From a virus: 54,982 nt of DNA. The notes beneath the pieces are model-generated. The model was given only the letters and a program-made list of their open reading frames with translations. It did not search any database and was not told the origin of the DNA. The DNA lies in IMG/VR virus record IMGVR_UViG_3300028800_000115, positions 1 through 54,982 of that record; one strand, given 5' to 3'. Positions 1,565-54,982 of this stretch are shown piece by piece (the first letter of the stretch is position 1; each line of letters opens with the position of its first letter). A program made the translations under genes and the position numbers.

Positions 1565-2386
1565 ATGACCAAGGAAGAGGAAGAGAAGGCCCGTAAGGAC
1601 GCCGAAGAAAAATCGCGGGCCGATGCCGATGGCAAGATGCAGGCCATTCTCGACGGCATCAGCGCGATCTCGGGTGCGTGCGACAGCATGAAGACCGAGA
1701 TGGACGCCATGAAGGGCCGTATGGACGCCTTCGAAAAGGGCGATCCGGCGAAGGCCGCGGCGGACAAGAAAGACGCCGAAGAGAAAGAGGCCAAGGAGAA
1801 GGCCGACGCCGAAGAGAAAGAGCGCAAGGACGCCGAAGAGAAGGCCGAAAAAGAAAAGGCCGATGCCGAGGAAAAGGCGAAAGCCGACGCCGCGGCCGCT
1901 GGCGATGTCGTCGCCGGTCTCAGCCGTCAGATCGCCGCGCTCGATGCAGCGATCAAGCCGCGCGCCGACGCCGACTCCAATACCATCGCGACGTCCTGGA
2001 CGAAGGCGAATGCCGTGATGGTTGCGCTCGGCGACAGCGCGGGTGCCTCGATGGCGCTGCCCGGTGAGGCGACGAGTGCTTATCGTCGCCGCATCATCGC
2101 CCCGCTTCAGCCTCACAGCAATCGGTGGTCGAAGGTCGATCTTGCGACCCTTTCCGGCGCGACGTTCGACATCGCCGAAGAGCAGATCCGCGCCGATGCG
2201 ATGGATGCCGCGATGAGCCCCCTGTCGACGATCAATGCCGGCGGCTTGCGCGAAATTCGCAACAGCCATTCGTCCGGCCACACGATCGTCACCTGGGCCG
2301 GCCAGCCGAAGGGCTGGATGGACAGCTTCGCCGGTTCCGGTCAGCGGGCCGCCGGTGAATTCAAGACCCGCCAAGGAGTTCACTGA
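1565..2386 (+). CDS. Coiled-coil head protein, possible scaffold
   Basis: The start is ATG 1565, eight bases after an AGGAG ribosome site; a GTG at 1556 overlaps that site and is less likely. Residues 1-115 are almost entirely Lys, Glu, Ala and Asp in repeating EEK/ADAEEK units, a long charged alpha-helical coiled coil. Residues 115-273 look globular, with a QAALD-like start and a conserved-looking tail containing NSHSSGHTIVTW. It sits between the prohead-like gene and the capsid genes and its TGA overlaps the next ATG, so they are translationally coupled. A scaffold or internal head role fits; no catalytic motif is seen. Confidence 0.55.
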   Translation: MTKEEEEKARKDAEEKSRADADGKMQAILDGISAISGACDSMKTEMDAMKGRMDAFEKGDPAKAAADKKDAEEKEAKEKADAEEKERKDAEEKAEKEKADAEEKAKADAAAAGDVVAGLSRQIAALDAAIKPRADADSNTIATSWTKANAVMVALGDSAGASMALPGEATSAYRRRIIAPLQPHSNRWSKVDLATLSGATFDIAEEQIRADAMDAAMSPLSTINAGGLREIRNSHSSGHTIVTWAGQPKGWMDSFAGSGQRAAGEFKTRQGVH

Positions 2387-3240
2387 TGGTCGCCACGATC
2401 CCGTTCAACCCGAACGCGACCACGGTCGCTCAGGGCTCTTTCGACACCGTCTCGAATGGTCTGGTTCAGGGCGACGTGTTCCCCGATCCGGCCATCATCT
2501 ACAAGAAGGCGTCGGGCGTGCTCGCACAGACCGAGACCATCCCGATGTGGGGCGGTGTCGGCATCTTCACCGACGTTCCCGGCGCCGCCGGCACGCCAAA
2601 CGCGGCATTGGGCCCGACCGTCGGCCGTGCGACCAGCCTCGCCAATCTCGTCGCGTTCTCGACCTGGTCTTACGGCCAGATCAACACGCCGTCGTCGCCG
2701 GTTCCGCTCGCGGCATCCGGCATGCAGGTCGAATACTTCCGTCTCGGCTCCGGCGCCCGCATCGTTCTCGCGGCCGACCCGGCGCTGATCGGTCTGCAGG
2801 GCGGTCTCACCACGGCGCAAGTCGCGTGGGACTTCACTCAGCAGCGCCTCGTGCCCTATCTCGGCACGCTGACGATCTCGTCCGGCACCTACAACAACAC
2901 GACCGGCGTCGTCACCTTGACGATGAGCGCCCCGATCACGTTCAGCCCCGGCGACGAGATCGTTGTCTCGAGCCTCACGGGCAGCGGCCAGTTCGCCAGC
3001 CTGAATGGCACGTTCGAGGCTCTGGCCGGAACCACGGGCTCCACGGTCGTCTATAATGCCGGGGCCGGAATCGGTGCGTCGGCGATCACCGGCGGCAGTC
3101 TCACGGTCGGCGGTACGGCGAGTCAGGCGCTCCCCTGTCAGGTGCTCGAGATCTTGGCGAACAACTGCCAGGTCGTCAATTACAGCGCCCCCAACGCCTC
3201 ATGGAACTTCGACGGCGCTGCCGCCGTGGTTCTGATCTGA
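2386..3240 (+). CDS. Head decoration-like structural protein
   Basis: The ATG overlaps the preceding TGA (ATGA), so it is coupled to the coiled-coil gene. The 284-residue product is rich in Gly, Thr, Ser and Val, beta-type, without signal or membrane segment. Its N-terminal part (FPDPAIIYKKASGVLAQ, then VGRATSLANLVAFSTW) is probably the family core. Residues of about 160-245 are an inserted beta module beginning GTYNNTTGVVTLT and continuing PGDEIVVSSLTGSGQF; a clearly related module occurs in the tail sheath protein of this window. Position directly before the major capsid gene suggests a decoration or cement protein. That role is inferred from position only. Confidence 0.5.
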   Translation: MVATIPFNPNATTVAQGSFDTVSNGLVQGDVFPDPAIIYKKASGVLAQTETIPMWGGVGIFTDVPGAAGTPNAALGPTVGRATSLANLVAFSTWSYGQINTPSSPVPLAASGMQVEYFRLGSGARIVLAADPALIGLQGGLTTAQVAWDFTQQRLVPYLGTLTISSGTYNNTTGVVTLTMSAPITFSPGDEIVVSSLTGSGQFASLNGTFEALAGTTGSTVVYNAGAGIGASAITGGSLTVGGTASQALPCQVLEILANNCQVVNYSAPNASWNFDGAAAVVLI

Positions 3241-3253
3241 TCGGAGAAAGAGC

Positions 3254-4276
3254 ATGACCCTTCAGGCATCCGCCTACGCACTCGTCCATCCGAGTTTCGT
3301 CGAGCCGGAGATCATCGTCCAGCAAAGCCAAGTTTCCGGCTTCGTCGATTTGCTGGCCGAATCTCAGGTCCGCGTTCGGCTCGCCGAGGACGATCTTCTC
3401 GTCTACATCAAGAGCATGAACCTGCGCACCCGCATTGCGGCCGGCACCACCGGCTTCAATGAACTGCCGGGCGTCGACATCTCGATGTCGATGATTTCGA
3501 CCGCGACGTATCTCCTTCAGGTCGCCGCGCAATACAACCACCACGACACCGCGGCAGCGGCGCGGTGGGGCTTCTCGGCGCCGGAAGCCTACCGGCTCGG
3601 CATGTGGCAAGCGAACTTCCAGCTTGTCCGCGACGCCTGTCTCTACGGCATGAACCCGCAGAACGGCGAGGGCCTCATCAATGCCCCCGGCGCGACTTCG
3701 GTCAATCTGCCGGCGGACAGCAACGGCAACGACACCGTGCTGACCTACGACAACGGCCAGATGGCGTTCTTCCTGTCGCAGCAGATCCAGGCGATCAAAA
3801 CCCGGACCCTGCAGATGGGCGTCGGCCGCGAGTTCACGATCCTCGGCCCGCAGCGCACGCTCGGCAGCTTCGAATACAACGTCGTCCAGTTGGTGCAGTT
3901 CCAGCGCGAAGGCGCCGGCACCGCCTCGACCAAGGAGACGTTGCAGAAGATCATCATGGCGAACGGCGACACCCTGAATTGGGTGTACGACGACACCCTG
4001 ATCGGCAAGGGCAACGGCGGCGCTGACATGGTCATCCTCGACATGCCGAAGATCGTTCGCCCGACCACGGCATCCTGGAACACGAACGCCGCGGCGGCCG
4101 TGTCTCCCGGAAACGACACCTGCATCACGCAATACTCGGACATGGCGGCACCGCGAGAGATCATCTCGCCGGGCCCGCGCGGCATGACCGATGTGCTGCA
4201 GGAACTTCGCATCACATCCGGATGGGCCCCGCGCAGTGCGGCACTCACCCTGATTTCGATGCCCTACTCGAGTTAA
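3254..4276 (+). CDS. Major capsid protein, DUF2184-type
   Basis: The 340-residue product resembles the DUF2184 family, the capsid proteins of several contractile- and long-tailed phages. Supporting features are an N-terminal segment anchoring to VEPEIIVQQSQVSGFVDLLA, the central run of aromatic and Ala-rich helices around residues 85-125 (AQYNHHDTAAAARWGF), and a C-terminal strand region ending in ITSGWAPRSAALTLISMPY. Length and neighbours (prohead gene upstream, connector genes downstream) fit. A ribosome site (GGAGAAAG) precedes ATG 3254. It should be the most abundant virion protein. Confidence 0.75.
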   Translation: MTLQASAYALVHPSFVEPEIIVQQSQVSGFVDLLAESQVRVRLAEDDLLVYIKSMNLRTRIAAGTTGFNELPGVDISMSMISTATYLLQVAAQYNHHDTAAAARWGFSAPEAYRLGMWQANFQLVRDACLYGMNPQNGEGLINAPGATSVNLPADSNGNDTVLTYDNGQMAFFLSQQIQAIKTRTLQMGVGREFTILGPQRTLGSFEYNVVQLVQFQREGAGTASTKETLQKIIMANGDTLNWVYDDTLIGKGNGGADMVILDMPKIVRPTTASWNTNAAAAVSPGNDTCITQYSDMAAPREIISPGPRGMTDVLQELRITSGWAPRSAALTLISMPYSS

Positions 4277-8578: not shown

Positions 8579-8617
8579 TCGGCGCGAATCCCCGACACCA
8601 GATAACGGAGAGTTCGC

Positions 8618-10240
8618 ATGTCGAATCCAATCGTCCGCGTAAACGTCAACCTCATCGTCGCGCCGACGCCGGACACGCTTCAGCGCACCGGCGCGTTCAT
8701 CAGCCAAGGCGCGACCAATCTAGCGGCGGGCACCTATTCGCTCCTGACCGCGTTCAGCGATCTCGCGCCGCTTCTGCTCGCGCCGATCGTGCTGGCGAGC
8801 CTTGCCTGGTCCGGCGGCGTCGCCACGGCGACGTGCGCGGACGTCGGCGTCGGCACGGGCTCCTACAACGGAACCACCGGTCTCGTGACACTCACCGGCA
8901 CCGGGCCGCTCGGTCTCGTCCCCGGCGATCCTGTCTATGTCGCCTCCCTTGCCGGCACCGGCGCCTTCGCTTCGGCGGAAGGTATCTTCACCTGTGCCGC
9001 GGGCACCACGGGCGATGTCGTGACGTATTTCATCGCCAAGGCGCTGACGATGACGATCTCGAGCGCCACGGGCAACATCTATGCGACCCACGGCGCCTCG
9101 AATGGCGACACCTTCTTGACGACGATTTCCGGCGCGACGCCGGTGGATTACAACGTCACCGTGCTCGCCACAGCCACGTCGCCGACGGCGTTCACCTATC
9201 CGCTGGCCTCCGATGGCGGCACCACCCCGGCGACGGGCGCGCCCGCCTTCACGGTACGCAATCAGGTCGAGTTGATCTCGATGGCGACGACATTCTTCGG
9301 CCAGGGCGCCAACACGGCGGTTTACGTTCTCGAACTCGGCCCCGGCGAGGTTGCCGCTGGCGTCGCCGCGTTGAGCACGTTCATCAATGCCCAGGCGCAG
9401 ATTTTCTATGCCTATCTCGTTCCGCGCAATTGGGATGCCGCCGCGTCGTTCATGACGCTCATGGCGAGTTACGAGGCGCCGAACACCAAGACGTATTTCT
9501 ACATTACGACCACGACGGCGACTTACACCGATTACACCGATCTGATGAAGTGCGCCTTCTTGCAGGTCGAGGCGCCCGGCATTCCGCTGACCGAATTCTC
9601 GTGCGCGGCGGACTTCTATGTCCTGCTCCATTACCGCCCGTCATCGACGAACAAGGTGACGCCGTTCGAATACAGCTTCGTGTTCGGGGTGACGCCATAC
9701 CCGACCAAGGGCAACGGCGCGCTGCTCACCGAATTGTCGGCGGCCAATGTTTCCTACATCGGAACCGGCGCCGAGGGCGGGATCTCCGATGCGATCATCT
9801 TCGGCGGCAATTACGCCGACGGGAACCCGGTAAACTTCTGGTATTCCGTCGATTGGGCCCAGATCAACACGAACCTTTTCGTGTCGAACGCGGTGATCAA
9901 CGGCAGCAACGATCCGACAAACCCGCTCTACTACGACCAGCAGGGCATCAATCGGCTCGAGACCGTCGCCGCCGCCGTCATGCGCAACGGCATCACCTAT
10001 GGGCTCGTGCTCAATCCGGTGGTGCAGGTCGAACTCGATGCGGATGCGTTCGCACAGGCGCTCGACGCCGGCACCTATGCCAATCTGACGGTCGTCAACG
10101 CGATTCCGTTCGTGGACTATGTCACGGAGAATCCGAGCGACTACAAGATCGGCCTCTATGAAGGCTTCACGATCGCATACACGCCGCTGCGCGGGTTCGA
10201 TCAAATCATCTTCAATCTCGACGCATCGAACTTCGGCTGA
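8618..10240 (+). CDS. Contractile tail sheath protein (DUF3383-like)
   Basis: The 540-residue product is followed by a tube-size gene, chaperones and tape measure, the standard place of the sheath. The C-terminal half has sheath-like features: ELISMATTFFGQGANTAVYVLELG, a Rossmann-like middle (YAYLVPRNWDAAASFMTLM), and the ending GFTIAYTPLRGFDQIIFNLDASNFG (pieces quoted below 20 residues each: AYTPLRGFDQIIF). Residues of about 65-210 carry two inserted beta modules, GSYNGTTGLVTLT with PGDPVYVASLAGTGAF, and ATPVDYNVTV with AFTYPLASDGG, related to modules in other virion proteins here. It would polymerise around the tube and contract on infection. Confidence 0.7.
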   Translation: MSNPIVRVNVNLIVAPTPDTLQRTGAFISQGATNLAAGTYSLLTAFSDLAPLLLAPIVLASLAWSGGVATATCADVGVGTGSYNGTTGLVTLTGTGPLGLVPGDPVYVASLAGTGAFASAEGIFTCAAGTTGDVVTYFIAKALTMTISSATGNIYATHGASNGDTFLTTISGATPVDYNVTVLATATSPTAFTYPLASDGGTTPATGAPAFTVRNQVELISMATTFFGQGANTAVYVLELGPGEVAAGVAALSTFINAQAQIFYAYLVPRNWDAAASFMTLMASYEAPNTKTYFYITTTTATYTDYTDLMKCAFLQVEAPGIPLTEFSCAADFYVLLHYRPSSTNKVTPFEYSFVFGVTPYPTKGNGALLTELSAANVSYIGTGAEGGISDAIIFGGNYADGNPVNFWYSVDWAQINTNLFVSNAVINGSNDPTNPLYYDQQGINRLETVAAAVMRNGITYGLVLNPVVQVELDADAFAQALDAGTYANLTVVNAIPFVDYVTENPSDYKIGLYEGFTIAYTPLRGFDQIIFNLDASNFG

Positions 10241-10254
10241 CCGGGAGACGATAG

Positions 10255-10692
10255 ATGGCAAATCCGAATATCCCGCAAGGCACGCTGAATCGCGTCCGCG
10301 GCTCGATCTCCTTCGACGACAACTCCGCGCTCAACGTCATCGCCGGCAATCTCGGTCCCGAGGGCATCTCGGTTTCCTTCGGCGGCGGCGCGACGACACG
10401 CATCGACACGCTGACTGGTCAGGTAACTTCGCCGGAGCCCTTCGTCCCGGTGAAGCTGACCGTGAACCTCTTGCGCACGCAGGCGCTCGCGAATTCCTTC
10501 AAGACGCAGCAGGAATTGAATTCGCTTCTCGGCGATCTTTCCTTCCGCACGGACGCGGTGACGCTTGGCGTCTATCAGTTCCAGAATTCCAGCATCGGCC
10601 GCATCGGCGACATGCGCGTCAACGGCAAGGACGCCGGCTACGCGCTCGAGATCGACGGCACCTATCAGATCAACAGTTCCTTGTGGGGCTGA
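10255..10692 (+). CDS. Tail tube protein
   Basis: The 145-residue product starts MANPNIPQGTLNRVRGSI and is beta-rich, with PVKLTVNLLRTQALANSF and a C-terminal DAGYALEIDGTYQINSSLWG. Size, position between sheath and chaperone genes, and this fold pattern match contractile-phage tail tube proteins. A GGGAGACG site precedes ATG 10255. It would form the inner tube through which DNA passes. I see no unusual feature. Confidence 0.7.
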   Translation: MANPNIPQGTLNRVRGSISFDDNSALNVIAGNLGPEGISVSFGGGATTRIDTLTGQVTSPEPFVPVKLTVNLLRTQALANSFKTQQELNSLLGDLSFRTDAVTLGVYQFQNSSIGRIGDMRVNGKDAGYALEIDGTYQINSSLWG

Positions 10693-10695
10693 TGA

Positions 10696-11295
10696 ATGGC
10701 CGTAACGCTTGACCGAAATCTGAATCTCGTCGTCCCGATCTATGACGACGACGACAAGATCGTCGCCTGGGTCCATTCCACGCCGATCAGCGCCGAGGTC
10801 TACGAGACCTATTACAAGGTCATCGCGCGCACGGTGGAGATGATCTATTCCGACGTCGGCATGGGCGTCGGCCCGCAAGTCGCGTCGCTGGCGCTTCGCG
10901 ACGCCGCGAAGCAGATGGGAATATGGGACGGGCCAACAGGCGTCGAAGCCGGGCTTGTGAATGAAATCCGCCGGCTGACCATGGTCGTCGTCCCGGGCCC
11001 GAACGGCTGGCAGACCATCCCCTACGACGACATGATCCGCGGCAAGAAGATCGACGACGACGATGCGCGCGAGGTCAACAACGCCATCACTTTTTTTACC
11101 TTGGCTTTGTGGGGCCACGGCCAGAAGCGGGCCGGGCGGAAGATAGCGATGGAAGCGGCGCCCAAGTGGGGCGGGCATACCACGTCATCGAGCATTACGG
11201 CGTTCAAAGATGGCTTGCCGACATCGATCGCCAACGAGAATACCAACGATCTCGAGGCGGAAGTTCAGAAGACACGATCGTCGATTCCATCCTGA
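10696..11295 (+). CDS. Tail assembly chaperone, short form
   Basis: It starts at ATG 10696, overlapping the tube stop region, and reads 199 residues without frameshift. Residues 1-134 are shared with a longer -1 frameshift product. The shared part is acidic and helical (IDDDDAREVNNAITFF at its end). After the heptanucleotide at 11091 the zero frame continues 65 residues (TLALWGHGQKRAGRK and so on). The place between tube and tape-measure genes and the two-frame layout are the hallmark of tail assembly chaperones (lambda gpG/GT type; P2 gpE/E' type), which coat the tape measure during assembly and are absent from the virion. Confidence 0.65.
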   Translation: MAVTLDRNLNLVVPIYDDDDKIVAWVHSTPISAEVYETYYKVIARTVEMIYSDVGMGVGPQVASLALRDAAKQMGIWDGPTGVEAGLVNEIRRLTMVVVPGPNGWQTIPYDDMIRGKKIDDDDAREVNNAITFFTLALWGHGQKRAGRKIAMEAAPKWGGHTTSSSITAFKDGLPTSIANENTNDLEAEVQKTRSSIPS

Positions 11296-11417
11296 ATTGG
11301 GCCTCGAACGAGGGGTTCGGTGACATGATGGAACGGGTTGGCGTCAGCCAGTGGTCGGACGTGCATGAGTTTCGTCAGCGATATTTGGTACAGGCCGCAC
11401 GCCGGCGCAGCGAGTAA
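10696..11417 (+). CDS. Tail assembly chaperone, predicted -1 frameshift product
   Basis: If ribosomes slip back one base at 11091-11097, translation leaves the zero frame after residue 134 and continues in the overlapping frame to TGA-type stop 11417, giving about 240 residues. The extension begins YLGFVGPRPEAGR and ends with a convincing helical segment (SILNWASNEGFGDMMERVG, then VHEFRQRYLVQAARRRSE). The -1 frame past the zero-frame stop has no good start of its own, and it closes 6 bases before the tape-measure ATG, as expected of a gpGT-type extension. The product is inferred. Confidence 0.55.
11091..11097 (+). other. Programmed -1 ribosomal frameshift site (T TTT TTT)
   Basis: Seven consecutive T residues are placed so that the zero-frame codons are TTT TTT preceded by T, the ideal X XXY YYZ slippery heptamer for tandem -1 slippage. 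It lies in the chaperone gene at codons 133-134. The -1 frame is open from well before the site to 11417. I did not identify a downstream pseudoknot with confidence. Confidence 0.65.
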
Positions 11418-31664: not shown

Positions 31665-32076
31665 GGCCAAATCGACATACCTCTATCTGGCCACGGACGG
31701 GAAGGCCCATAAGATCGGGATAGCCTCTGACGTGCATGTCCGGCGCTATACGTTGCAGTTAGACAACAAGCGCCCGGTTCGGATGCTCAGGTCGTGGCAT
31801 CGGCCCCGAGACGCCCAAGCTATCGAGACGATTATTAAGCACCATTTTTCGGATCAAGTCTGCCAAGGGCGGGAGTGGTTCACGGCGTCGAAAGACGAAA
31901 TATTGTTTCAAATCAACCGGATCGTTAAAATCCACGACCAATACCATGCGGATCGGTTCAAGCGAGCAAAACGGGTCAAGGCTCTCCGGGTTTCAATCTC
32001 GACGATCTATGCCAATTTTCAGGTTAGCCGCGATGGCGAAAAAGTCGTCATTAAGCGCAGGAAGAAAACCGGATGA
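31633..32076 (+). CDS. T5orf172/GIY-YIG-type protein with uncertain start
   Basis: The frame 31573-32076 encodes TYLYLATDGKAHKIGIASD, IETIIKHHFSDQVCQ and QGREWFTASKDEILFQINR, matching T5orf172-type GIY-YIG domains. There is no ATG in a sensible place. TTG 31633 is the nearest usual alternative start; in a cassette-like context (TAGGGCC) the codon where a start is expected reads AAA. It may use TTG, be coupled to or frameshifted from 31470, or have lost its start. The protein may be a defective nuclease. Stop overlaps the next ATG. Confidence 0.5.
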   Translation: MPPTRPRGADRAKSTYLYLATDGKAHKIGIASDVHVRRYTLQLDNKRPVRMLRSWHRPRDAQAIETIIKHHFSDQVCQGREWFTASKDEILFQINRIVKIHDQYHADRFKRAKRVKALRVSISTIYANFQVSRDGEKVVIKRRKKTG

Positions 32077-32864
32077 CGCGGGTGCTTGCATGGTTCTCTT
32101 GCGGCGACGCCAGCGCAGCGGCGGCATACTTGGCCGCGTGTAAATACGGCGACAATAGCGCTATCGGTTTCCAGGTTTGCTACTGCGACACCTTCGCCTA
32201 TGAGCATCCCGACAATCGCCGGTTCTTTGGCGACGTTGAACGCTGGCTTGGCTTCGACATAAAGATTCTGTGGTCGAAAGAGTACCGGGATATTTATGAC
32301 GTGTTCGAGCGGACGCGCTGGCTGGTCGGAATCGGCGGCGCACGCTGCACGACAGAACTGAAAAAGAACGTCCGCACGGCATATCAGCGCGTCGGGGATA
32401 TTCACGTCTTTGGCTTCACGGCTGACGAGCAACATCGCGTTGACCGCTTCCGCCGAGAGAACCCGGACTTGCTTGCCGAGTTTCCACTGATCGACGCCAA
32501 GATGACGAAGCGTGATTGTCACGCGATGGTGCGCGCTGCCGGGATCGAACTGCCGATGATGTACCGGCTCGGGTACAAAAATAATAACTGCATCGGGTGC
32601 GTCAAAGGACAGTCGGGCTACTGGAACAAAATCCGGCGAGACTTCCCCGAGGCGTTCGACAAGATGGCGAAGATGGAGCGCACCTTGAACGCGGCAATCT
32701 GCAAGCGCGAAGGCGTCAAAGACGGTAAGCGGTGGCGTGAGCGCGTGTTCCTTGACGAGCTTCCGCCAGATGCGGGACGGTACGAAGCCGAGCCTGACAT
32801 TGAGTGCGGCGTCTTGTGCATCCACGAGCCGACGCCAAATACGTTATCAATCACCCAGGATTAA
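32073..32864 (+). CDS. PAPS reductase-family ATP-pyrophosphatase-like protein
   Basis: The 263-residue product begins with a PP-loop-type motif FSCGDASAAAAYLA (S9 to S14), as in PAPS reductase and DndC-type enzymes. Cysteine-rich parts follow: GARCTTELKK, NNCIGCVKGQSGYW with a C-x2-C, and CGVLC at the end. This pattern is common in phage proteins of this family of unknown substrate, which may activate or thiolate a nucleic-acid target. ATG overlaps the upstream stop. Its C-terminal codons and stop form the first plus-strand junction cassette. Confidence 0.65.
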   Translation: MTRVLAWFSCGDASAAAAYLAACKYGDNSAIGFQVCYCDTFAYEHPDNRRFFGDVERWLGFDIKILWSKEYRDIYDVFERTRWLVGIGGARCTTELKKNVRTAYQRVGDIHVFGFTADEQHRVDRFRRENPDLLAEFPLIDAKMTKRDCHAMVRAAGIELPMMYRLGYKNNNCIGCVKGQSGYWNKIRRDFPEAFDKMAKMERTLNAAICKREGVKDGKRWRERVFLDELPPDAGRYEAEPDIECGVLCIHEPTPNTLSITQD

Positions 32865-35017: not shown

Positions 35018-35752
35018 ATGCGCGTCCTCGATCTATTCAGCGGCATAGGCGGTTTCTCGCTTGGCCTAGAGCGCGCGGGGATGTGGACTGTGGCGTTCTG
35101 TGAGATTGATCCGTTCTGCCGTAAAGTCTTGGCGAAGCATTGGCCCGAGGTACCCTGTTACGATGACATCCGAACCCTCACCGCTGAGCGGCTCACCGCA
35201 GATGGAATTACTGCCGATACAATCTGCGGCGGATTCCCCTGCCAGGACATCAGCACAGCAGGGAACGGCGCAGGGATCGACGGTGAGCAATCGGGTTTAT
35301 GGCGCGAATATGCCCGACTTATTGGCGAGATACGACCGCAGCACGTCATTGTGGAGAACGTCGCAGCATTGCTTGGGCGGGGGCTTGGACGAGTTCTCGG
35401 AGACTTGGCCGCGCTCGGGTACGATGCGGAGTGGCATTGCATTCCAGCTTCCGCCGTTGGTCTACCTCATGAGCGAGATCGCGTGTGGATTATTGCCAAC
35501 GCCGAGAAAGGACCGGGCTTATCAAGCATACTCATCGCCGGGCTACGCACCTTCCCTCACCCAATATCTAACTGGCAAGATTGGGCGGGAGAACAATGGC
35601 CTGAAACCGAATCCAGAATTTGTAGAGTTGATGATGGGATTCCCGATCGGTCACACCGAATTGAAACCCTCGGAAACGCCGTCGTCCCGCAAATCCCCGA
35701 GATCATCGGGCGAGCGATAATGCAAATACATCATCAATCCTCGAATACATAG
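35018..35752 (+). CDS. DNA (cytosine-5) methyltransferase
   Basis: Start ATG 35018 after AAGGAGCAG. The 244-residue product has C5-methyltransferase motifs: DLFSGIGGFSLGLERAG (I), catalytic GGFPCQDIS with C75 (IV), VIVENVAALLGRG with E113-N114-V115 (VI), PHERDRVWIIA (VIII-like) and LGNAVVPQIPEIIGRAI (X). The target-recognition region is very short. It adds methyl groups to cytosine, probably to protect phage DNA or as the substrate for later base modification. A second protein-like frame overlaps it (see the separate entry). Confidence 0.85.
   Translation: MRVLDLFSGIGGFSLGLERAGMWTVAFCEIDPFCRKVLAKHWPEVPCYDDIRTLTAERLTADGITADTICGGFPCQDISTAGNGAGIDGEQSGLWREYARLIGEIRPQHVIVENVAALLGRGLGRVLGDLAALGYDAEWHCIPASAVGLPHERDRVWIIANAEKGPGLSSILIAGLRTFPHPISNWQDWAGEQWPETESRICRVDDGIPDRSHRIETLGNAVVPQIPEIIGRAIMQIHHQSSNT
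35100..35720 (+). CDS. Overlapping alternative-frame ORF inside the C5-methyltransferase gene
   Basis: In the frame one base off from the methyltransferase, an open frame of up to 206 residues runs almost the whole gene. A better start may be ATG 35163, with a GAGG upstream. It contains SPARTSAQQGTAQGS, DLLARYDRSTSLWRTSQ, FSETWPRSGTMRSGIAFQL, GLLPTPRKDRAYQ and NPEFVELMMGFPIGHTELK. These look like a recurrent phage-protein family I recall near or overlapping such methyltransferases. It could be a true overprinted gene, or merely a frame shadow of conserved methyltransferase codons. I cannot decide without selection analysis. Confidence 0.35.
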   Translation: MRLIRSAVKSWRSIGPRYPVTMTSEPSPLSGSPQMELLPIQSAADSPARTSAQQGTAQGSTVSNRVYGANMPDLLARYDRSTSLWRTSQHCLGGGLDEFSETWPRSGTMRSGIAFQLPPLVYLMSEIACGLLPTPRKDRAYQAYSSPGYAPSLTQYLTGKIGRENNGLKPNPEFVELMMGFPIGHTELKPSETPSSRKSPRSSGER

Positions 35753-35761
35753 GGAGCGGAA

Positions 35762-35836
35762 GTGGCGAATTGGTTCTATCTCGCTGGCTCGGTCTGCTTC
35801 GTGCTCGGCACGATTATCAACATGGTGGCACGTTGA
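35762..35836 (+). CDS. 24-residue membrane microprotein
   Basis: GTG 35762 follows a full AGGGAGCGGAAG cassette. The frame encodes MANWFYLAGSVCFVLGTII (first residue read as Met), continuing NMVAR and stop, a single hydrophobic span. Its TGA overlaps the TTG start of the next gene, so it may couple its translation. Its size makes it uncertain, but the cassette supports translation. Confidence 0.5.
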   Translation: MANWFYLAGSVCFVLGTIINMVAR

Positions 35837-36654
35837 GCGTTCGCATCCTCCAAGGTAACTGCCTCGACGTGCTGCGGACGCTGCCCGATGAATCCGTGCA
35901 TTGCATCGTCACGTCGCCCCCGTACTTCTGGCTGCGAGACTACGGGTGCGAGGGCCAGATCGGGCATGAGCCGGACGTGGCAAGTTTTATCGCCATCATT
36001 GGCGACGTGTTTGATGGGGCACGGCGCGTCCTGCGGGCCGATGGTGTTCTGTGGCTCAACCTCGGCGATAGCTACTACAGCGGCAACGGTCAGCCGATGG
36101 GCCGCGACCCGAAGTCGTCGTCGCGCAATTTCTCCCGCGGCAAACTCCGCCCTCTCGATGTTGGTGGGTGGGACATTCCAAAGAAAAGCTTGCTCGGCAT
36201 TCCTTGGCTCTGCGCTCTTGAATTGCAGCGCCGCGGCTGGACATTGCGATCGGATATCATCTGGTGCCGCTCGACCGCGCTGGCCGAGCCGTCCGTTACT
36301 GATAGACCTGGGCGGCAGCACGAATATCTGTTCCTACTCTCAAAGTCTCGCCGGTACTTTTTCAACAAGGCCGGGAACCCAGAGGCAAGCGTCTGGCATA
36401 TTGCCCACGAGCGAAACGTCAAAGGTCACAACGCCGCTTTCCCCGAAGAACTGGTCGAGCGTTGTATCGCCACTGGCTGCCCGCCGGCGGGAACCGTACT
36501 CGATCCATTCGGCGGATCGGGAACGTCTGGCCTTGTCGCAGATCGAATGGGACGCGACGCCATCCTGATCGAACTAAACCCGGAATATGCCGCGATGGCC
36601 GAGCGCCGGATTCGCGGCGACGCGCCAATGTTATCATCAATCACCACAGATTAA
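35833..36654 (+). CDS. DNA methyltransferase, N4-cytosine/N6-adenine type
   Basis: The start is TTG 35833, overlapping the stop of the microprotein gene; the upstream frame overlaps it wrongly. The 273-residue product has motif IV SPPY at residues 28-31 (TSPPYFWLRDYG), DILW-type helix WTLRSDIIWCRS and motif I DPFGGSGTSGLVADRMG (from D224). The SPPY variant points to N4-cytosine, but N6-adenine enzymes cannot be excluded. Order IV before I is the beta class. No restriction partner is seen, so it may be protective or regulatory. Confidence 0.8.
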   Translation: MSVRILQGNCLDVLRTLPDESVHCIVTSPPYFWLRDYGCEGQIGHEPDVASFIAIIGDVFDGARRVLRADGVLWLNLGDSYYSGNGQPMGRDPKSSSRNFSRGKLRPLDVGGWDIPKKSLLGIPWLCALELQRRGWTLRSDIIWCRSTALAEPSVTDRPGRQHEYLFLLSKSRRYFFNKAGNPEASVWHIAHERNVKGHNAAFPEELVERCIATGCPPAGTVLDPFGGSGTSGLVADRMGRDAILIELNPEYAAMAERRIRGDAPMLSSITTD

Positions 36655-46427: not shown

Positions 46428-47041
46428 GCCAGAACCGGTCTCACGCTGTCATGGCGCAGCGGCACGAGCCGCCCGACAGTTTTGATTTTTTCCCAACACC
46501 CGCCTGGGCCACGCGCGCGCTTTACACGCACGTCGTCGGCCTGGCCGGCATGGTCATTCTCGAGCCCGCATGTGGTGACGGCGCGATGGTGAAACCGCTT
46601 GAAGAAGTCGCGCTAAATGTTTTTGCCAGCGACGTTTTCGACTATGGCGCCGGATACCATGTTGATGATTTTTTGATACCTGGCGGCGCACCCGGGTGCG
46701 ATTGGGTTGTGACGAATCCGCCCTTCGCTTTGGCCGAGCAGTTTATCGAGCGCGGCCTTGAGTTGGCCGAATTTGGCGTTGCCGTGCTCGTCCGGTCCGT
46801 CTTCGTCGAAAGCGTCGGCCGATATGAGCGGCTTTTTCGTGACCGCCCGCCGGCTGTTGTCGCGCAGTTCGTTGAGCGCGTGCCGATGGTCAAAGGCCGG
46901 CTCGACCGCAAGGCGTCCACGGCGACGTCCTACGCCTGGTTGGTCTGGACGCGCGCGCCGGTGAAGGAAAGCCGCATAGTCTGGATACCGCCCTGCCGCG
47001 CCGTTTTGGACCGCGACACCGATTGGCCGGCCGCCCCATGA
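46424..47041 (+). CDS. DNA methyltransferase, NPPF-type
   Basis: GTG 46424 overlaps the previous TGA (GTGA); an ATG at 46451 is also possible. The 205-residue product has DFFPTPAWATRALYTHV, motif I EPACGDGAM (residues 47-55), and motif IV NPPF (98-101). NPPF enzymes methylate N6 of adenine. It may modify host or phage DNA, or be a partner of the GcrA-like protein after it. Confidence 0.7.
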   Translation: MSQNRSHAVMAQRHEPPDSFDFFPTPAWATRALYTHVVGLAGMVILEPACGDGAMVKPLEEVALNVFASDVFDYGAGYHVDDFLIPGGAPGCDWVVTNPPFALAEQFIERGLELAEFGVAVLVRSVFVESVGRYERLFRDRPPAVVAQFVERVPMVKGRLDRKASTATSYAWLVWTRAPVKESRIVWIPPCRAVLDRDTDWPAAP

Positions 47042-47670
47042 AACCCTCGCAAGAATTCCTCGACGACGTCGCGCGGCGCTGGAACGACAAGCAATCCATG
47101 TCCGCGATCGCCGACGCCAAGGGCGTTTCGAAAGGCGTCATCGCCGGCACGATCCACCGCATGCGCGAAGCCGGCGCAAAACTCGATATTCGCGGCGTTG
47201 TTCGATTATCGAAGGCGAACGCCGCCCGGAAGGCGAAAAAGGCCGCGTCTTCGCGCAAGACGAAGCGCGCCGAGACCGACGCGATTGCCGCGGCGATCGA
47301 TGCGCAGCCGGCGCCGCGAGAGAAACCCGTGCCGGTTTCGGCCGCCAGATCGGTGCCGTTGGCGCGCGTTCGCATCAAACAGCGCGCGCTCGAGCCTGGC
47401 GTCGTTCCTGTGGTGCCGCGCCCGGCGCTGGCCGCGCCCGTGGCGATGCCGGTGCGAGTCCCGGTGGTTGCGCTGGCCCCTGGCGGCTGCCACTTCATCG
47501 ACGGCCATCCCGTTGAAGAGATGCGCGCCGGCAAGGATCCATTCTGCGGCAAGAAGCGCGCGCCGGGCTCGCCTTATTGCGAGCGACACCATGCCATCTG
47601 CTATCGGCCGGCGAAAGAGCGTCCGGTTGCCGAGTTCGCGACGGTCTACATTCCGAAAGCGCACCACTGA
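47038..47670 (+). CDS. GcrA-like cell-cycle regulator
   Basis: ATG 47038 overlaps the previous stop. The 210-residue product has an N-terminal HTH like GcrA: FLDDVARRWNDKQSMSAIA then GVSKGVIAGTIHRMREAG. A basic linker follows and the C-terminus carries a CHFIDGHP and FCGKKRAPGSPYCERHH metal-like motif. GcrA works with sigma70 at promoters methylated by CcrM in Alphaproteobacteria. A phage copy could steer host or phage promoters. Confidence 0.65.
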   Translation: MKPSQEFLDDVARRWNDKQSMSAIADAKGVSKGVIAGTIHRMREAGAKLDIRGVVRLSKANAARKAKKAASSRKTKRAETDAIAAAIDAQPAPREKPVPVSAARSVPLARVRIKQRALEPGVVPVVPRPALAAPVAMPVRVPVVALAPGGCHFIDGHPVEEMRAGKDPFCGKKRAPGSPYCERHHAICYRPAKERPVAEFATVYIPKAHH

Positions 47671-50892: not shown

Positions 50893-51609
50893 ATGGCCGC
50901 CCGCCGCCCGCAACGCCGAACTCGCCACCAGGCCGACACCCCGACGATGGTCGACGAAGTCCGCCCGGCGATCGCCTTCCGCGACCGCGTCGTCGACTTC
51001 AAGCGCGTCAAGGCCAGCGAGTTGCGCGCCAACATGAAAAACTGGCGCATCCATCCCGAAAGCCAGAAGGGCGCGCTCGGCGGCGTGCTGAAGGAAATCG
51101 GCTTCGTCGGCGCGCTGGTCGCCCGCATCGTGCCGGACGGGCTCGAACTGCTCGACGGCCACTTGCGGCAAGACCTGGCCGGCGACGCCGAAGTGCCGGT
51201 GCTCATCACCGATCTCAACGATGCCGAGGCGGCGAAGGTGCTCGCAACCTACGATCCGCTGACATCGATGGCGCTGCACGACGACGACATGCTGCGTTCG
51301 CTGCTCGGCGAGATCAGCCTGGACGACAATGCCGAACTGCGCCGCTTGATGGCCGACCTGCAGGACAAGCTTGTCGACGAGGAAACCGCCGGCGAACTGG
51401 ACGACTTCGAAGTCCCGGGCATGGCGCTGCAGCCTCACGAGCACTACGATTATCTCGTCGTCCTCGCCACGACGTCGCAGGAGTGGAACATGATCTGTGA
51501 AAAGCTGAAACTGGTCCCGGAGATTCGCCGCGGCCGCATGGGGACATGCCGCGCGATTCGCGCCGACAGGCTGCTCGAGGCGCTGAAGGCCGCCGCGGTG
51601 AAGGCGTGA
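50893..51609 (+). CDS. ParB-like N-terminal-domain protein
   Basis: The 238-residue product starts with a basic tail and continues KASELRANMKNWRIHPESQ then GALVARIVPDGLELLDGHLR, the ParB N-terminal fold with a GHLR variant of the GEHRxxA motif, and LITDLNDAEAAKVLATYDPL. No HTH DNA-binding domain follows as in a true ParB; residues 160-238 are different. It may use nucleotide chemistry or bind another protein. SD before ATG 50893 is weak. Confidence 0.6.
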   Translation: MAARRPQRRTRHQADTPTMVDEVRPAIAFRDRVVDFKRVKASELRANMKNWRIHPESQKGALGGVLKEIGFVGALVARIVPDGLELLDGHLRQDLAGDAEVPVLITDLNDAEAAKVLATYDPLTSMALHDDDMLRSLLGEISLDDNAELRRLMADLQDKLVDEETAGELDDFEVPGMALQPHEHYDYLVVLATTSQEWNMICEKLKLVPEIRRGRMGTCRAIRADRLLEALKAAAVKA

Positions 51610-51791
51610 GCGTCGCCAACGACACCGCCGCGCTCGATCGCAAGGCCGCCCGCGTCGCGAACACCATGCTCGATTACCGCGTTCCGCCGCCGGCCGTGGA
51701 GGCGCTGAAAAAGCTGATCATCGTTCTCGCCGAACAGCACGCGGCCGACCAGCTTCAGATCGTGCTCGACAAGGTCAAGGTCAGGCGATGA
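51606..51791 (+). CDS. Small helical hypothetical protein
   Basis: GTG 51606 overlaps the previous TGA. The 61-residue product contains AALDRKAARVANTMLDYRV and AVEALKKLIIVLAEQHAAD. Helical, soluble. No recognised family. Confidence 0.45.
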   Translation: MSVANDTAALDRKAARVANTMLDYRVPPPAVEALKKLIIVLAEQHAADQLQIVLDKVKVRR

Positions 51792-51991
51792 CCGACACCG
51801 AAATGCTCGACATCGTGGAGCGGCGCCAACTGGTAATTATGCCGATGAAGGATGGCGGATGGTGCGTTGTGCATGGGCCGTCGCGAATCGTCATCGGTCA
51901 ACCGACGCCTCGCCTGCGTGACGCGCTGCGGCTGGCGTGTGCTCTGCCCGAGTTCGTGAGTGACAGCGGGAATCTTGGCGGGTTCGTATGA
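51788..51991 (+). CDS. Small hypothetical protein
   Basis: The 67-residue product contains MLDIVERRQLVIMPMKDGG and WCVVHGPSRIVIGQPTPRL, a beta-type fragment. Overlaps both neighbours. No recognised family. Confidence 0.45.
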   Translation: MTDTEMLDIVERRQLVIMPMKDGGWCVVHGPSRIVIGQPTPRLRDALRLACALPEFVSDSGNLGGFV

Positions 51992-52227
51992 GCATCCCGG
52001 AGATCACCGCAGAAGATATCGCCGAAAATATTCTAGCTCCGGAAATTGAATCCGCGCTCTATGCGTTGATCGTGAATTCCGGCCCTATCCGATACGACGA
52101 TGCTGGCCTCGCGAGAATCCACAATGCCGCGCGCAAGGTTTTTGACGGGATGAGCCTTGGCGACCTAGATGGGCTGCGTGCCCGCGCCGACGATGAAATC
52201 AAGAAATTATTTGGCGAAGACCGATGA
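51988..52227 (+). CDS. Small hypothetical protein
   Basis: The 79-residue product starts MSIPEITAEDIAENILAPE and contains RIHNAARKVFDGMSLGDL. Acidic and helical. ATG overlaps the previous stop. No recognised family. Confidence 0.45.
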   Translation: MSIPEITAEDIAENILAPEIESALYALIVNSGPIRYDDAGLARIHNAARKVFDGMSLGDLDGLRARADDEIKKLFGEDR

Positions 52228-52991
52228 CCGCGCTCGACATCGCCATCGTCGTCCCGTCCCGCCGGCGCGCCCACAACATGCCGCTCATTCGCGAATTGCT
52301 TCCGACCGCGGTGATCTGCATCGAAGACGAAGAGGCGCGCGACTATGCCGGCATGGTGCCGGAGAGCAATATCCTGCTCCACCCGTCGCTGCCGAACGCG
52401 GCCGCGGTGCGGAATTGGATGCTCGAGCACGTCGAACAGCCGATCCTGGTGATGATCGATGACGACTTCTGCGGCGTGAAGGTCACGACCGGCTCGAGGC
52501 GCTTCATCACCGATCCCGACGAAATCCTCGCCATCATCGAAAACGCGGCGCGCTGCTGCAATGATCTCGGGCTCGGCGCGTTCTGCTTTTCAGGCACGCC
52601 GAACACCACCATCATCCGGCCCGATGAGCGGCCGATTTATCCGACGCAACCCGTCTTTCGCGTCTTCGGCGTCATGGGCCCGGCGCGGCATCGCAAGTGG
52701 CGCGTCGATCTGCCTGGCCGCGCCGATGTCGACTGGACGCTGCGCACCCTGAAGCTTGACCGCTGCGTCTATGCCGACATCCGGTTTTTCTTCGACTGCG
52801 GTGCCGTCTTCAGCGGCCGCGGCGGCGCCGTCGGCCAGATATCGCCGGAGCAATTCGACAACTCGAGCCGCGAACTGCGGCGGACCTGGGGCCGCTCGCT
52901 GTCGTTCAAGGCGCCGGCCTACGTCAAGAAGCGCGAGGTCTCGAGCATCAGCATCCGGGTGTCGCGGACGAACAAGACGGCGCAGAAATGA
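52224..52991 (+). CDS. Glycosyltransferase resembling TET-associated (TAGT) family
   Basis: The 255-residue product starts ALDIAIVVPSRRRAHNMPL, has a DDD-type metal motif D79-D81 in ILVMIDDDFCGV, RNWMLEHV before it, and later RADVDWTLRTLKLDRCVYA and DIRFFFDCGAVFSGRGGAVG. This order matches TET-associated glycosyltransferases, which glycosylate 5-hydroxymethylpyrimidine in phage DNA. No TET oxygenase is seen in the window. It overlaps its upstream gene and lies 1.2 kb before the UDP-galactopyranose mutase. The alternative is a surface glycan enzyme. Confidence 0.6.
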   Translation: MTALDIAIVVPSRRRAHNMPLIRELLPTAVICIEDEEARDYAGMVPESNILLHPSLPNAAAVRNWMLEHVEQPILVMIDDDFCGVKVTTGSRRFITDPDEILAIIENAARCCNDLGLGAFCFSGTPNTTIIRPDERPIYPTQPVFRVFGVMGPARHRKWRVDLPGRADVDWTLRTLKLDRCVYADIRFFFDCGAVFSGRGGAVGQISPEQFDNSSRELRRTWGRSLSFKAPAYVKKREVSSISIRVSRTNKTAQK

Positions 52992-52998
52992 GGGGGAT

Positions 52999-53322
52999 AT
53001 GTCGAAGCATCCGCGCGACCGGTGGGGCCAGAAATACACGCATGCGGAAGCCGACGGAACGATCGTCGAATCGCAGATCGAATACGTCGGGTACGGCTTC
53101 ACCGAATACACGATAACCGGTTCGGTCGAAGGCGTGACCGCCGCCGTTGGCTCGATCCTTCTCCGCTATCCGAGCAATCCGTATGGCACATGGTTCAACT
53201 GGCCTCCTGGCCCCGATGGCCCGAAGAATTTCGACGGAAAGCGCACCGAGCATCGCCCCCCAGTTGAAATCTCGCCCGGCGTCTGGAAGTTGACCGGCCG
53301 CCACTCAAACTCGAGCGATTAA
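52999..53322 (+). CDS. Hypothetical protein
   Basis: ATG 52999 follows GAGGGGGAT, a strong site. The 107-residue product contains YTHAEADGTIVESQIEYVG, EYTITGSVEGVTAAVGSIL and NPYGTWFNWPPGPDG. Beta-type. No recognised family. Its place between glycosyltransferase and mutase may link it to modification, unproven. Confidence 0.45.
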   Translation: MSKHPRDRWGQKYTHAEADGTIVESQIEYVGYGFTEYTITGSVEGVTAAVGSILLRYPSNPYGTWFNWPPGPDGPKNFDGKRTEHRPPVEISPGVWKLTGRHSNSSD

Positions 53323-53323
53323 C

Positions 53324-53596
53324 ATGACCACGTCAGGCACACCGCTCGCCGCGCTTCGCGCGCAAGCCGACACCATCGCCGCCGGCCTGAAGTCGATGGA
53401 GCGCGGAACCGCCCATGACCCCGACGGCAAGATCGCCATCGCGCGCGCCAAGGCAACCATAACGTTCGGTATCGTCCAGGACGACAAGGTGATAAAAGTC
53501 ACGATCGATTGGGAACGGATTCGAACGTCCGATGAAGCCGGCATCGCCGAGTGGATCGTCGGATACATGAGCGGCGAGAGTAAGGCGGTTCATTGA
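53324..53596 (+). CDS. Small hypothetical protein
   Basis: The 90-residue product contains TIAAGLKSMERGTAHDPDG and VQDDKVIKVTIDWERIRTS. No membrane segment or family recognised. Starts 2 bases after the previous stop. Confidence 0.45.
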   Translation: MTTSGTPLAALRAQADTIAAGLKSMERGTAHDPDGKIAIARAKATITFGIVQDDKVIKVTIDWERIRTSDEAGIAEWIVGYMSGESKAVH

Positions 53597-53603
53597 GGGG
53601 CCG

Positions 53604-54164
53604 ATGATTCCCTGTGCGTTCTGTGGGGTTAAGTTCAAGCCAAAGGCTCGCCGGCTAAAGCGCTGCTCGCGCGGATGTGGCATCGCCTACAAGCGCACGC
53701 CGGAATACCGCGAACGACTGCGCCTGATAACGGCGCGCGATTGGGAAACGAACCCCCGTCGGGCTGAGGCTGCGATTCGGGCGGCCGATGCGTGCCGCTC
53801 GCCGGAGAACCGCCAGAGATGCTCGGAAGAAAACCGGCGGCGCTTTGCCGATCCATCTTACCGCGCAAAGGTCGGCGCGACGAATGCCGCCGTGCAGGGC
53901 GACGATGCCCATCGTACGGCCGCTAGCCAGCGAATGACGGCGAATTGGTACGATCCAGAGTGGCGCGCCAGCACCATCAGATTGATGCGCGGCGTCAAAA
54001 AAGGCGAAGGATCGCCGCGGCAATTGTTGAAGGTTTTTATCGACGGCGGCCTATCCTTGGCCCAGATTGCGGAAGAATTGGCGCTTCCGGTCGAACGGGT
54101 TGAACAGACCGCTAGGCGGCGAGGATGGTGGCCGCGCGTGATTGTCGAAACGGGGGAGCGATGA
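53604..54164 (+). CDS. Zinc-finger protein with NUMOD-like repeats and C-terminal HTH
   Basis: The 186-residue product starts with CAFCGVKFKPKARRLKRC and a second cysteine pair (a zinc ribbon), then repeats such as SPENRQRCSEENRRRFADP and DPEWRASTIRLMRGVKKG that recall homing-endonuclease NUMOD repeats, then SLAQIAEELALPVERVEQT, an HTH. No nuclease catalytic motif is seen. It may be a DNA-binding regulator or remnant of a mobile element. Confidence 0.5.
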   Translation: MIPCAFCGVKFKPKARRLKRCSRGCGIAYKRTPEYRERLRLITARDWETNPRRAEAAIRAADACRSPENRQRCSEENRRRFADPSYRAKVGATNAAVQGDDAHRTAASQRMTANWYDPEWRASTIRLMRGVKKGEGSPRQLLKVFIDGGLSLAQIAEELALPVERVEQTARRRGWWPRVIVETGER

Positions 54165-54982
54165 AAATCCTGATCGCCGGTGCGGGTATCTTCGGCGCGA
54201 CCTGCACCCGCGTGCTGACCGAGGCCGGCCACGAATGCGTCGTCGTCGAGGCGCGCCAGCACGTCGCCGGGAACGTCTATACGCGATGGAGCGACGAGGC
54301 CGGCTGCAACGTCCACAAATACGGCGCCCACATCTTCCACACGAAACGGCCGGACGTCTGGGCCTTCGTGAACCGGTTCGCCGACTTCAGCCGGTACACC
54401 CATCGCGTGAAGGCGTGGGCGGAAGACGCGGTTTATCCGCTCCCGATAAATCTCGCGACGATCAGTCGACTGTGGGATGCCGATACCCCGTCGCAGATGC
54501 AAGCCGTCCTCGATTACCATGCTCGCGGCGCTGACGAGCCGACTAACATGCGCGATGCCTGTATCGCGAAGATGGGACCAGAACTCTTTCGCCTATTCGT
54601 CGCCGGTTACACCCGCAAGCAATGGGGCCGCGACGCCGCCGATCTCCCCGCATCGCTGGCCGATCGCGTGAAGGTGCGCACCACCTTCGATGACCAGTAT
54701 TTCGACGACCCGTACCAAGGCATTCCGCGATCGGGCTATACGCCGCTAATTCGCCGCATGCTCGAATGCGCCGTGACGCGCCTTGGGTTCAAGGTCGACT
54801 TCGAAGCTGCTCACGCCGCGCTGACGACGGGATATGACCGAATCATCTATACCGGCGCGATCGATGAATTCTTCGGCTACAGGCTCGGCGCGCTCGAGTA
54901 CCGCTCGCTGCGGTTCGAGCATGACGTCGTCGACGTCGACGACTACCAGGGCTGCGCCGTGATGAATTACTGCGACGCCGAC
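54161..54982 (+). CDS. glf: UDP-galactopyranose mutase (3' end outside window)
   Basis: ATG 54161 overlaps the previous TGA; the 274 visible residues run off the right edge. The product has the FAD site GAGIFGAT (residues 7-14), VHKYGAHIFHT (51-61), GYTRKQWGRD (149-158), ITGYDRIIY-type helix, YTGAIDEFFGYRLGALEYR and QGCAVMNYCDAD. These match UDP-galactopyranose mutase, which turns UDP-galactopyranose into UDP-galactofuranose. A phage copy beside a glycosyltransferase suggests galactofuranose transfer to DNA or to a surface glycan. Confidence 0.8.
   Translation, partial: MKILIAGAGIFGATCTRVLTEAGHECVVVEARQHVAGNVYTRWSDEAGCNVHKYGAHIFHTKRPDVWAFVNRFADFSRYTHRVKAWAEDAVYPLPINLATISRLWDADTPSQMQAVLDYHARGADEPTNMRDACIAKMGPELFRLFVAGYTRKQWGRDAADLPASLADRVKVRTTFDDQYFDDPYQGIPRSGYTPLIRRMLECAVTRLGFKVDFEAAHAALTTGYDRIIYTGAIDEFFGYRLGALEYRSLRFEHDVVDVDDYQGCAVMNYCDAD

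Follow-up and report, generated by a model that had tools for sequence, protein, structure and literature searches.

A modular ParB-TAGT phage cassette with UDP-galactopyranose mutase and its possible role in DNA glycosylation

Introduction

The IMG/VR record IMGVR_UViG_3300028800_000115, a linear fragment of 54,982 bases (61% GC) from one uncultivated virus, ends in a run of genes for a ParB-like protein, a glycosyltransferase of the TAGT family and a UDP-galactopyranose mutase (UGM), which raises the question of what sugar this module transfers and to which acceptor. Here, "the window" denotes the whole of this 54,982-base stretch, and labels beginning with L or G denote other viral loci or records, respectively, that were compared with it. 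ParB and TAGT form a conserved core in many phages, and the sugar-donor or tailoring enzyme that adjoins this core is exchanged between phages, with UGM recurring as one of the exchangeable parts. The reading we favor, at a probability of about 0.5, is modular post-replicative DNA glycosylation, in which UGM would supply galactofuranose (Galf) and ParB would provide targeting.

Results

The module at the right edge of the window is made up as follows.

50893..51609, plus strand: ParB/Srx-like protein with a ParB_N-type domain carrying a GHxR motif, a C-terminal domain and matches to ParB PHROGs
51546..52227, plus strand: three small open reading frames (ORFs) between ParB and TAGT, with ATGA overlaps and no Pfam match
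52224..52991, plus strand: TAGT-family GT-A glycosyltransferase of 255 amino acids (PF20691, phrog_842), DDD motif at residues 79-81
52999..53596, plus strand: two small ORFs (52999-53322 and 53324-53596) with no Pfam or PHROG match
53604..54164, plus strand: small protein with a Cys-rich N-terminus and a helix-turn-helix-like C-terminus, weak Sigma70_r4 and HNH matches only
54161..54982, plus strand: UGM (Glf; PF03275), first ~274 residues, open at the contig end

From 51788 to 54982 these genes are closely packed on the plus strand: they overlap by ATGA at 51788, 51988, 52224 and 54161 and are separated by 1-7 bp elsewhere; TAGT and UGM therefore probably share one operon with ParB.

Identity of the glycosyltransferase and the mutase

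An earlier note on this DNA had called the gene at 52224 a TAGT-like glycosyltransferase and the gene at 54161 a UGM, and had proposed a profile search of the former against the TAGT family. Both calls held. In the profile search, the window TAGT scored 34.2 bits against PF20691 (curated Pfam cut-off, 27.5 bits), and it also matched phrog_842, beta-glucosyl-hydroxymethylcytosine (HMC)-alpha-glucosyltransferase, with an E-value of 4.6e-9. Residues P11, R15, Y41, W65, D79-D80-D81, G116, P137, D170, G200, G201, W222 and G223 are invariant across 13 TAGT relatives. An AlphaFold 2 model of the window TAGT (per-residue confidence score, pLDDT, 79; predicted template modeling score, pTM, 0.81) found its nearest viral models among TAGT-named proteins and the beta-glucosyl-HMC-alpha-glucosyltransferase of Klebsiella phage PKO111 (template modeling scores, TM, of 0.66-0.76), and resembled solved GT-A enzymes more distantly, with an acidic DxD-type motif present at D79-D80-D81. 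Naming the donor sugar from the closest solved structures was abandoned, as the GT-A matches WrtF and PcManGT (TM ~0.5) were too distant for this purpose. The mutase scored 149 bits against PF03275 and up to 247 bits against solved UGMs in the PDB, and alignment to the latter showed intact FAD, KYGAHIFHT, GYTxKQWG and YQGIPxxGYT motifs; its ORF leaves the contig at residue 274, a full-length UGM having ~370 amino acids.

A ParB-like protein is the constant partner of TAGT

The window ParB-like protein has no Pfam match, including ParB_N (PF02195) above its cut-off, whereas its homologues in phage Teamocil and E. coli do pass the PF02195 cut-off. It matches ParB PHROGs, among them phrog_498, a group of phage ParB-methyltransferase fusions whose ParB part it matches, and its structural model, of low confidence, matched ParB CTPases and Srx structures using Foldseek (E 3e-6). 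Among its relatives N50, R52, G89 and R92 are invariant and the GxxR motif is present, and the C-terminal domain is conserved only among TAGT partners. In related phages the ParB partners are 59-60% identical and lie directly upstream of TAGT.

Scanning viral contigs with the single TAGT sequence yielded no close relative; a two-sequence TAGT alignment succeeded instead as a query against IMG/VR, with ParB left out of the search. A homologue of the window ParB was found upstream of TAGT, normally as the next gene, in 18/18 loci from this TAGT-only scan, which supports the suggestion that the protein at 50893 takes part as a partner. Five more close loci (L146, L148, L150, L153 and L155) were obtained in a second scan, again with ParB in 5/5. 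A scan with a ParB alignment returned only G052, and no independent test was based on it.

The ParB-TAGT pair is also present in 56 Microbacterium phage records, Streptococcus phage Javan291, Lactobacillus phages c5 and phi jlb1, halovirus HHTV-2 and Escherichia phage vB_EcoS-683R6, and TAGT scored above the cut-off in proteins of E. coli, c5, HHTV-2, L060, L047, Javan291 and jlb1. Usually the terminase genes follow shortly after the pair (L060, L034, L122, L125, c5, jlb1, 683R6 and Javan291). A scan of bacterial genomes with TAGT gave no match, though the E. coli pair demonstrates that distant TAGTs exist in such genomes. In E. coli prophages (L266 3196-4912; L268 is another example) the pair again lies upstream of the terminase, its ParB/Srx gene being annotated as ynaK and its TAGT as hypothetical. 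By Megablast, 1575 of the 5426 complete E. coli genomes contain DNA matching the E. coli pair, and in 887 of these the match spans 80% or more of the pair. These are counts of matching genomes and not of intact pairs, as the annotation of at least one strain (M18) lists ynaK as broken.

UGM has joined the ParB-TAGT core repeatedly

Local profile searches for ParB and TAGT were applied to 155 UGM loci. Contiguous ParB-TAGT-UGM was found in seven non-redundant loci (the window, L148, L153, L034, L067, L047 and L060; L032 and L033 are copies of L034), forming overlapping or abutting units in L060, L148 and L153. In L060, ParB (423-1139), TAGT (1132-1968), UGM (1961-3070), the small terminase subunit gene TerS (3067-3423) and the large subunit gene TerL (3398 onward) overlap in series. 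Records G018/G019 carry ParB-TAGT at ~10 kb from UGM. Overall, TAGT lies less than 2 kb from UGM in 7/8 non-redundant TAGT-bearing UGM loci (P 1.7e-4 under uniform placement within 9 kb), and in 5/6 once the two loci originally detected by their TAGT are removed (P 0.0026).

To explain the triad label on the UGM tree, no fewer than three gains or losses must be placed on supported branches. The UGMs of the window, L148 and L153 group in a single clade (100/98), with the window UGM as a long branch, and those of L034/L067, L047 and L060 are placed elsewhere. On the TAGT tree at least two changes are needed, and the association with UGM has thus arisen repeatedly. The window TAGT groups with L119 and L146, which have no UGM, and not with L148/L153, meaning that the cassette moved relative to TAGT. 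The coupling of TAGT and UGM envisaged in the earlier note is therefore supported by an abutting or overlapping unit that recurs in other phages, and UGM appears, as judged from gene order and phylogeny, to be a true member of the ParB-TAGT cassette.

The adjoining sugar enzyme is exchanged between phages

The close set comprises 13 loci, the window included, whose TAGTs are at least 54% identical. Following TAGT, UGM is found in the window, L148 and L153; a UDP-glucuronate decarboxylase (UDP-xylose synthase; 306 bits to solved UDP-glucuronate decarboxylases) together with a sulfotransferase-like gene in L119; two short-chain dehydrogenase/reductase epimerases in L121 and L150; sulfotransferase-like genes alone in L120, L122, L123, L124, L146 and L155; and no cassette gene in L125. 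At the place of UGM, Teamocil has a UDP-glucose dehydrogenase homologue. The ParB and TAGT core is thus conserved while the adjoining sugar-donor or tailoring enzyme is exchanged, and different phages therefore probably attach different sugars. Assignment of the protein with the PNSGSTW motif as a sulfotransferase was not upheld, as its matches to PF13469 (E 0.007) and PF00685 (E 0.017) both fell below the cut-off and no PDB match was obtained; hence the term "sulfotransferase-like".

Several neighbors of the module were also recorded. Directly after the sulfotransferase-like gene of L153, a gene at 10542-11363 encodes a fusion protein in which an APS-kinase domain (52 bits) is joined to a cytidylyltransferase-like domain; it could supply 3'-phosphoadenosine-5'-phosphosulfate (PAPS) or another activated group. 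In L120 (G052), ParB-TAGT is directly preceded by a Mom-family gene (8603-9157), a hint that one phage may combine different DNA modifications. Elsewhere in the window, away from the module, a PAPS-reductase-like gene (phrog_424) lies at 32073-32864.

Apart from the window, every close locus (12/12) has an MgsA_C-like gene, resembling the RarA C-terminus, near the module, and so does Teamocil, where the copy belongs to phrog_16866. It is usually convergent to ParB-TAGT (L119-L125, L146-L155, L088 6549-7169); a window counterpart would be expected beyond the right edge. Sequence past 54982 is beyond the record. At the left edge of the window are head genes (protease/nudix and major head protein), no terminase or portal was recognized among the scanned window ORFs, and both are probably encoded in the stretch missing between the two edges. 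Judged from relatives, an MgsA_C-like gene and/or the terminase is more likely past the right edge than a TET gene.

Base-preparing enzymes

Three further window genes bear on the nature of the phage and on how an acceptor base might be prepared.

35018-35752: C5-methyltransferase (PF00145, 148 bits)
35770-36654: N6/N4 methyltransferase, beside the C5-methyltransferase
47023-47670: GcrA-like regulator

Because the GcrA-like regulator occurs together with the N6/N4 methyltransferase, this tailed phage probably has an alphaproteobacterial host.

The TAGT family is named for its association with TET/JBP dioxygenases, and the earlier note had proposed a route in which the C5-methyltransferase makes 5-methylcytosine (5mC), TET oxidizes it to 5-hydroxymethylcytosine and TAGT adds Galf. 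A search for TET (PF12851), in which no positive control matched, covered the window, 27 related records and 12 more (11 of them new) and found none. A Pfam scan of 77 window ORFs found no TET, oxygenase or thymidylate synthase (TS)-family (PF00303) gene, and a scan of 61 Teamocil ORFs no oxygenase or TS-family gene. In the five complete cultured genomes c5, jlb1, HHTV-2, Javan291 and Teamocil, neither TET (again with no matching control) nor a C5-methyltransferase or TS-family gene was found, and PF00303 was absent from the ParB-TAGT records searched. A C5-methyltransferase was present in 2/24 ParB-TAGT records and in 0/12 further ones. The window gene at 35018 is a C5-methyltransferase as had been claimed, and its assignment to the module is rejected, as it lies 15 kb away and is missing from most ParB-TAGT records. 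Despite the family name and the presence of this gene, the TET/5mC route is not supported and is very improbable; no TET was found in any record searched, with no control matching, and the C5-methyltransferase sits beside an N6/N4 methyltransferase in a genome that also has a GcrA-type regulator gene.

Discussion

What, then, would the module modify? Two published observations point to DNA. The TAGT-family enzyme of T2/T6 acts on DNA and makes gentiobiosyl-hmC (PMC13216743), and ParBc genes of unassigned role accompany the CmoX cytosine carboxymethylation loci (PMC12783734). The match of the window ParB to ParB-methyltransferase fusions (phrog_498) fits with these. Among the records compared here, G059 (L108 1824-10151), whose capsid protein shares 63% identity with that of the window, has TAGT within a 5-hydroxymethyldeoxyuridine (5-hmdU) hypermodification cluster with TS, a 5-hmdU DNA kinase (HMUDK_hel), radical SAM/SPASM and YfbR-like genes. 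The huge phage G008 (394 kb; L008 5356-11101) has in a row a thymidylate synthase-kinase fusion, a kinase-like gene, TAGT, a GT47-like candidate transferase and UGM, with no ParB. In the proposed mechanism, UGM would convert UDP-galactopyranose to UDP-galactofuranose, from which the TAGT-family transferase would move Galf to the acceptor. This acceptor would most likely be phage DNA, prepared by no TET/5mC route, and the ParB-like partner, with its DNA/nucleotide-binding fold, may bring the transferase to the DNA before or during packaging. The gene identities, the conserved adjacency and the exchange of cassettes are demonstrated; a DNA acceptor, Galf as the sugar transferred and the task of ParB are inferred.

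Several results weigh against DNA glycosylation with Galf. A base-handle enzyme, whether for a hydroxyl or another group, was unrecognized in the window and in the five complete ParB-TAGT genomes. A DNA acceptor would therefore have to lie in the backbone or in a base, the latter either unmodified or prepared by an enzyme that was not recognized; otherwise the acceptor could be a protein of the packaging machinery. Most ParB-TAGT loci have no UGM, and the window, unlike L148, L153 and L060, has three small genes between TAGT and UGM. TAGT was not significantly more frequent in UGM loci than in control loci (11/155 versus 0/39, P 0.12), so the case for coupling is made from position and repeated gain, not from count enrichment. 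A bolder form of the proposal, which we put forward as tentative and rather doubtful, is that ParB-TAGT glycosylates a canonical base or the backbone without any hydroxymethyl, hydroxy or 5mC-derived handle. ParB would then select the site and the cassette would choose the sugar (Galf here, glucuronate or a xylose-type sugar elsewhere), which in some phages would be sulfated; many E. coli prophages would share this core, with ynaK and an unnamed gene as its parts.

The lack of a recognized base-handle enzyme and the position of the pair immediately upstream of TerS/TerL at the loci listed above would also suit a module that glycosylates a phage protein (terminase, portal or some other protein of the packaging machinery or the virion), with ParB recruiting the transferase to the packaging complex. 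This explanation is unlikely, as the characterized TAGT-family members in the cited papers act on DNA, ParB-like proteins are linked to DNA modification, and G059 and G008 have TAGT inside nucleotide-modification clusters. Less likely again is that UGM and TAGT alter the host surface, through Galf in lipopolysaccharide (LPS) or the wall, and so block other phages. UGM normally serves surface Galf polymers and is common in phages without TAGT (144/155 UGM loci), which speaks for such a role. However, the transferase belongs to TAGT and not to a Galf-transferase family, and it keeps a constant ParB partner and a terminase neighborhood. The module also lacks the anatomy of O-antigen conversion (gtr): no flippase (GtrA), bactoprenol transferase (GtrB) or multi-pass Gtr gene was found, and ParB, TAGT and UGM have no membrane-spanning segment (highest 19-residue hydropathy of TAGT, 0.94), which leaves the LPS-modifying alternative raised in the earlier note without structural support. 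It is similarly improbable that the window UGM is an independent auxiliary gene adjoining ParB-TAGT by chance. Its long branch and the small ORFs that separate it from TAGT would fit this, but the overlapping or abutting units of L060, L148 and L153, and the grouping of the window UGM with those of L148 and L153 in one clade, argue for genuine membership.

Comparison with known systems

TET-TAGT hypermodification systems, reportedly described by Iyer et al. in 2013, have the TAGT enzyme in common with the window module; here no TET was found (by a search whose control had no match) and the core partner is ParB. The beta-glucosyl-HMC-alpha-glucosyltransferase of T2/T6 is likewise a phage-encoded PF20691 enzyme with a GT-A fold and a DDD motif, but it works on glucosyl-hmC from a deoxycytidine monophosphate (dCMP) hydroxymethylase pathway (PMC13216743, PMC13390438). 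No such pathway is present here, and the window module has in addition a ParB partner and its own sugar-donor enzyme. The CmoA-CmoX-CmoY 5-carboxymethylcytosine loci also place a ParBc protein beside phage DNA-modification genes, in their case a cytosine carboxymethyltransferase and an amide ligase instead of a glycosyltransferase and a mutase (PMC12783734). The RB69-type arabinosyl-hydroxycytosine pathway sets an unusual sugar on phage DNA by means of phage-encoded sugar-nucleotide enzymes, as is predicted for the window, but requires a TS-family 5-hydroxy-dCMP synthase and has no ParB-TAGT unit (PMC13390438, PMC6024577). Among the open-access papers searched, we found none that tied UGM or galactofuranose to the DNA of phages, but the original 2013 description of TAGT may already mention neighboring ParB genes. 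If the proposed reading is correct, galactofuranose would be a new DNA-modification sugar, added by a system independent of the known base-preparing enzymes and by a chemistry that may itself be new.

Another close counterpart is the Quhwahvirus operon of Microbacterium phages, which has ParB, a TAGT-like glycosyltransferase, a nucleoside diphosphate-sugar enzyme and an MgsA_C-like gene in the same order, with UDP-glucose dehydrogenase instead of UGM; the Quhwah glycosyltransferases and UDP-glucose dehydrogenase were named without an assigned role (PMC7302621). Cultured Microbacterium and Lactobacillus phages and a haloarchaeal virus carry ParB-TAGT, which is also widespread among E. coli prophages; the system is thus within reach of nucleoside mass spectrometry. 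A solitary TAGT, with no alpha- or beta-glucosyltransferase, was reported in 288 of 753 phage genomes, and such enzymes were regarded as a pool in which novel transferases may be found (PMC13216743). Pairing with ParB and the exchangeable sugar cassettes described here give these orphan TAGTs a testable role.

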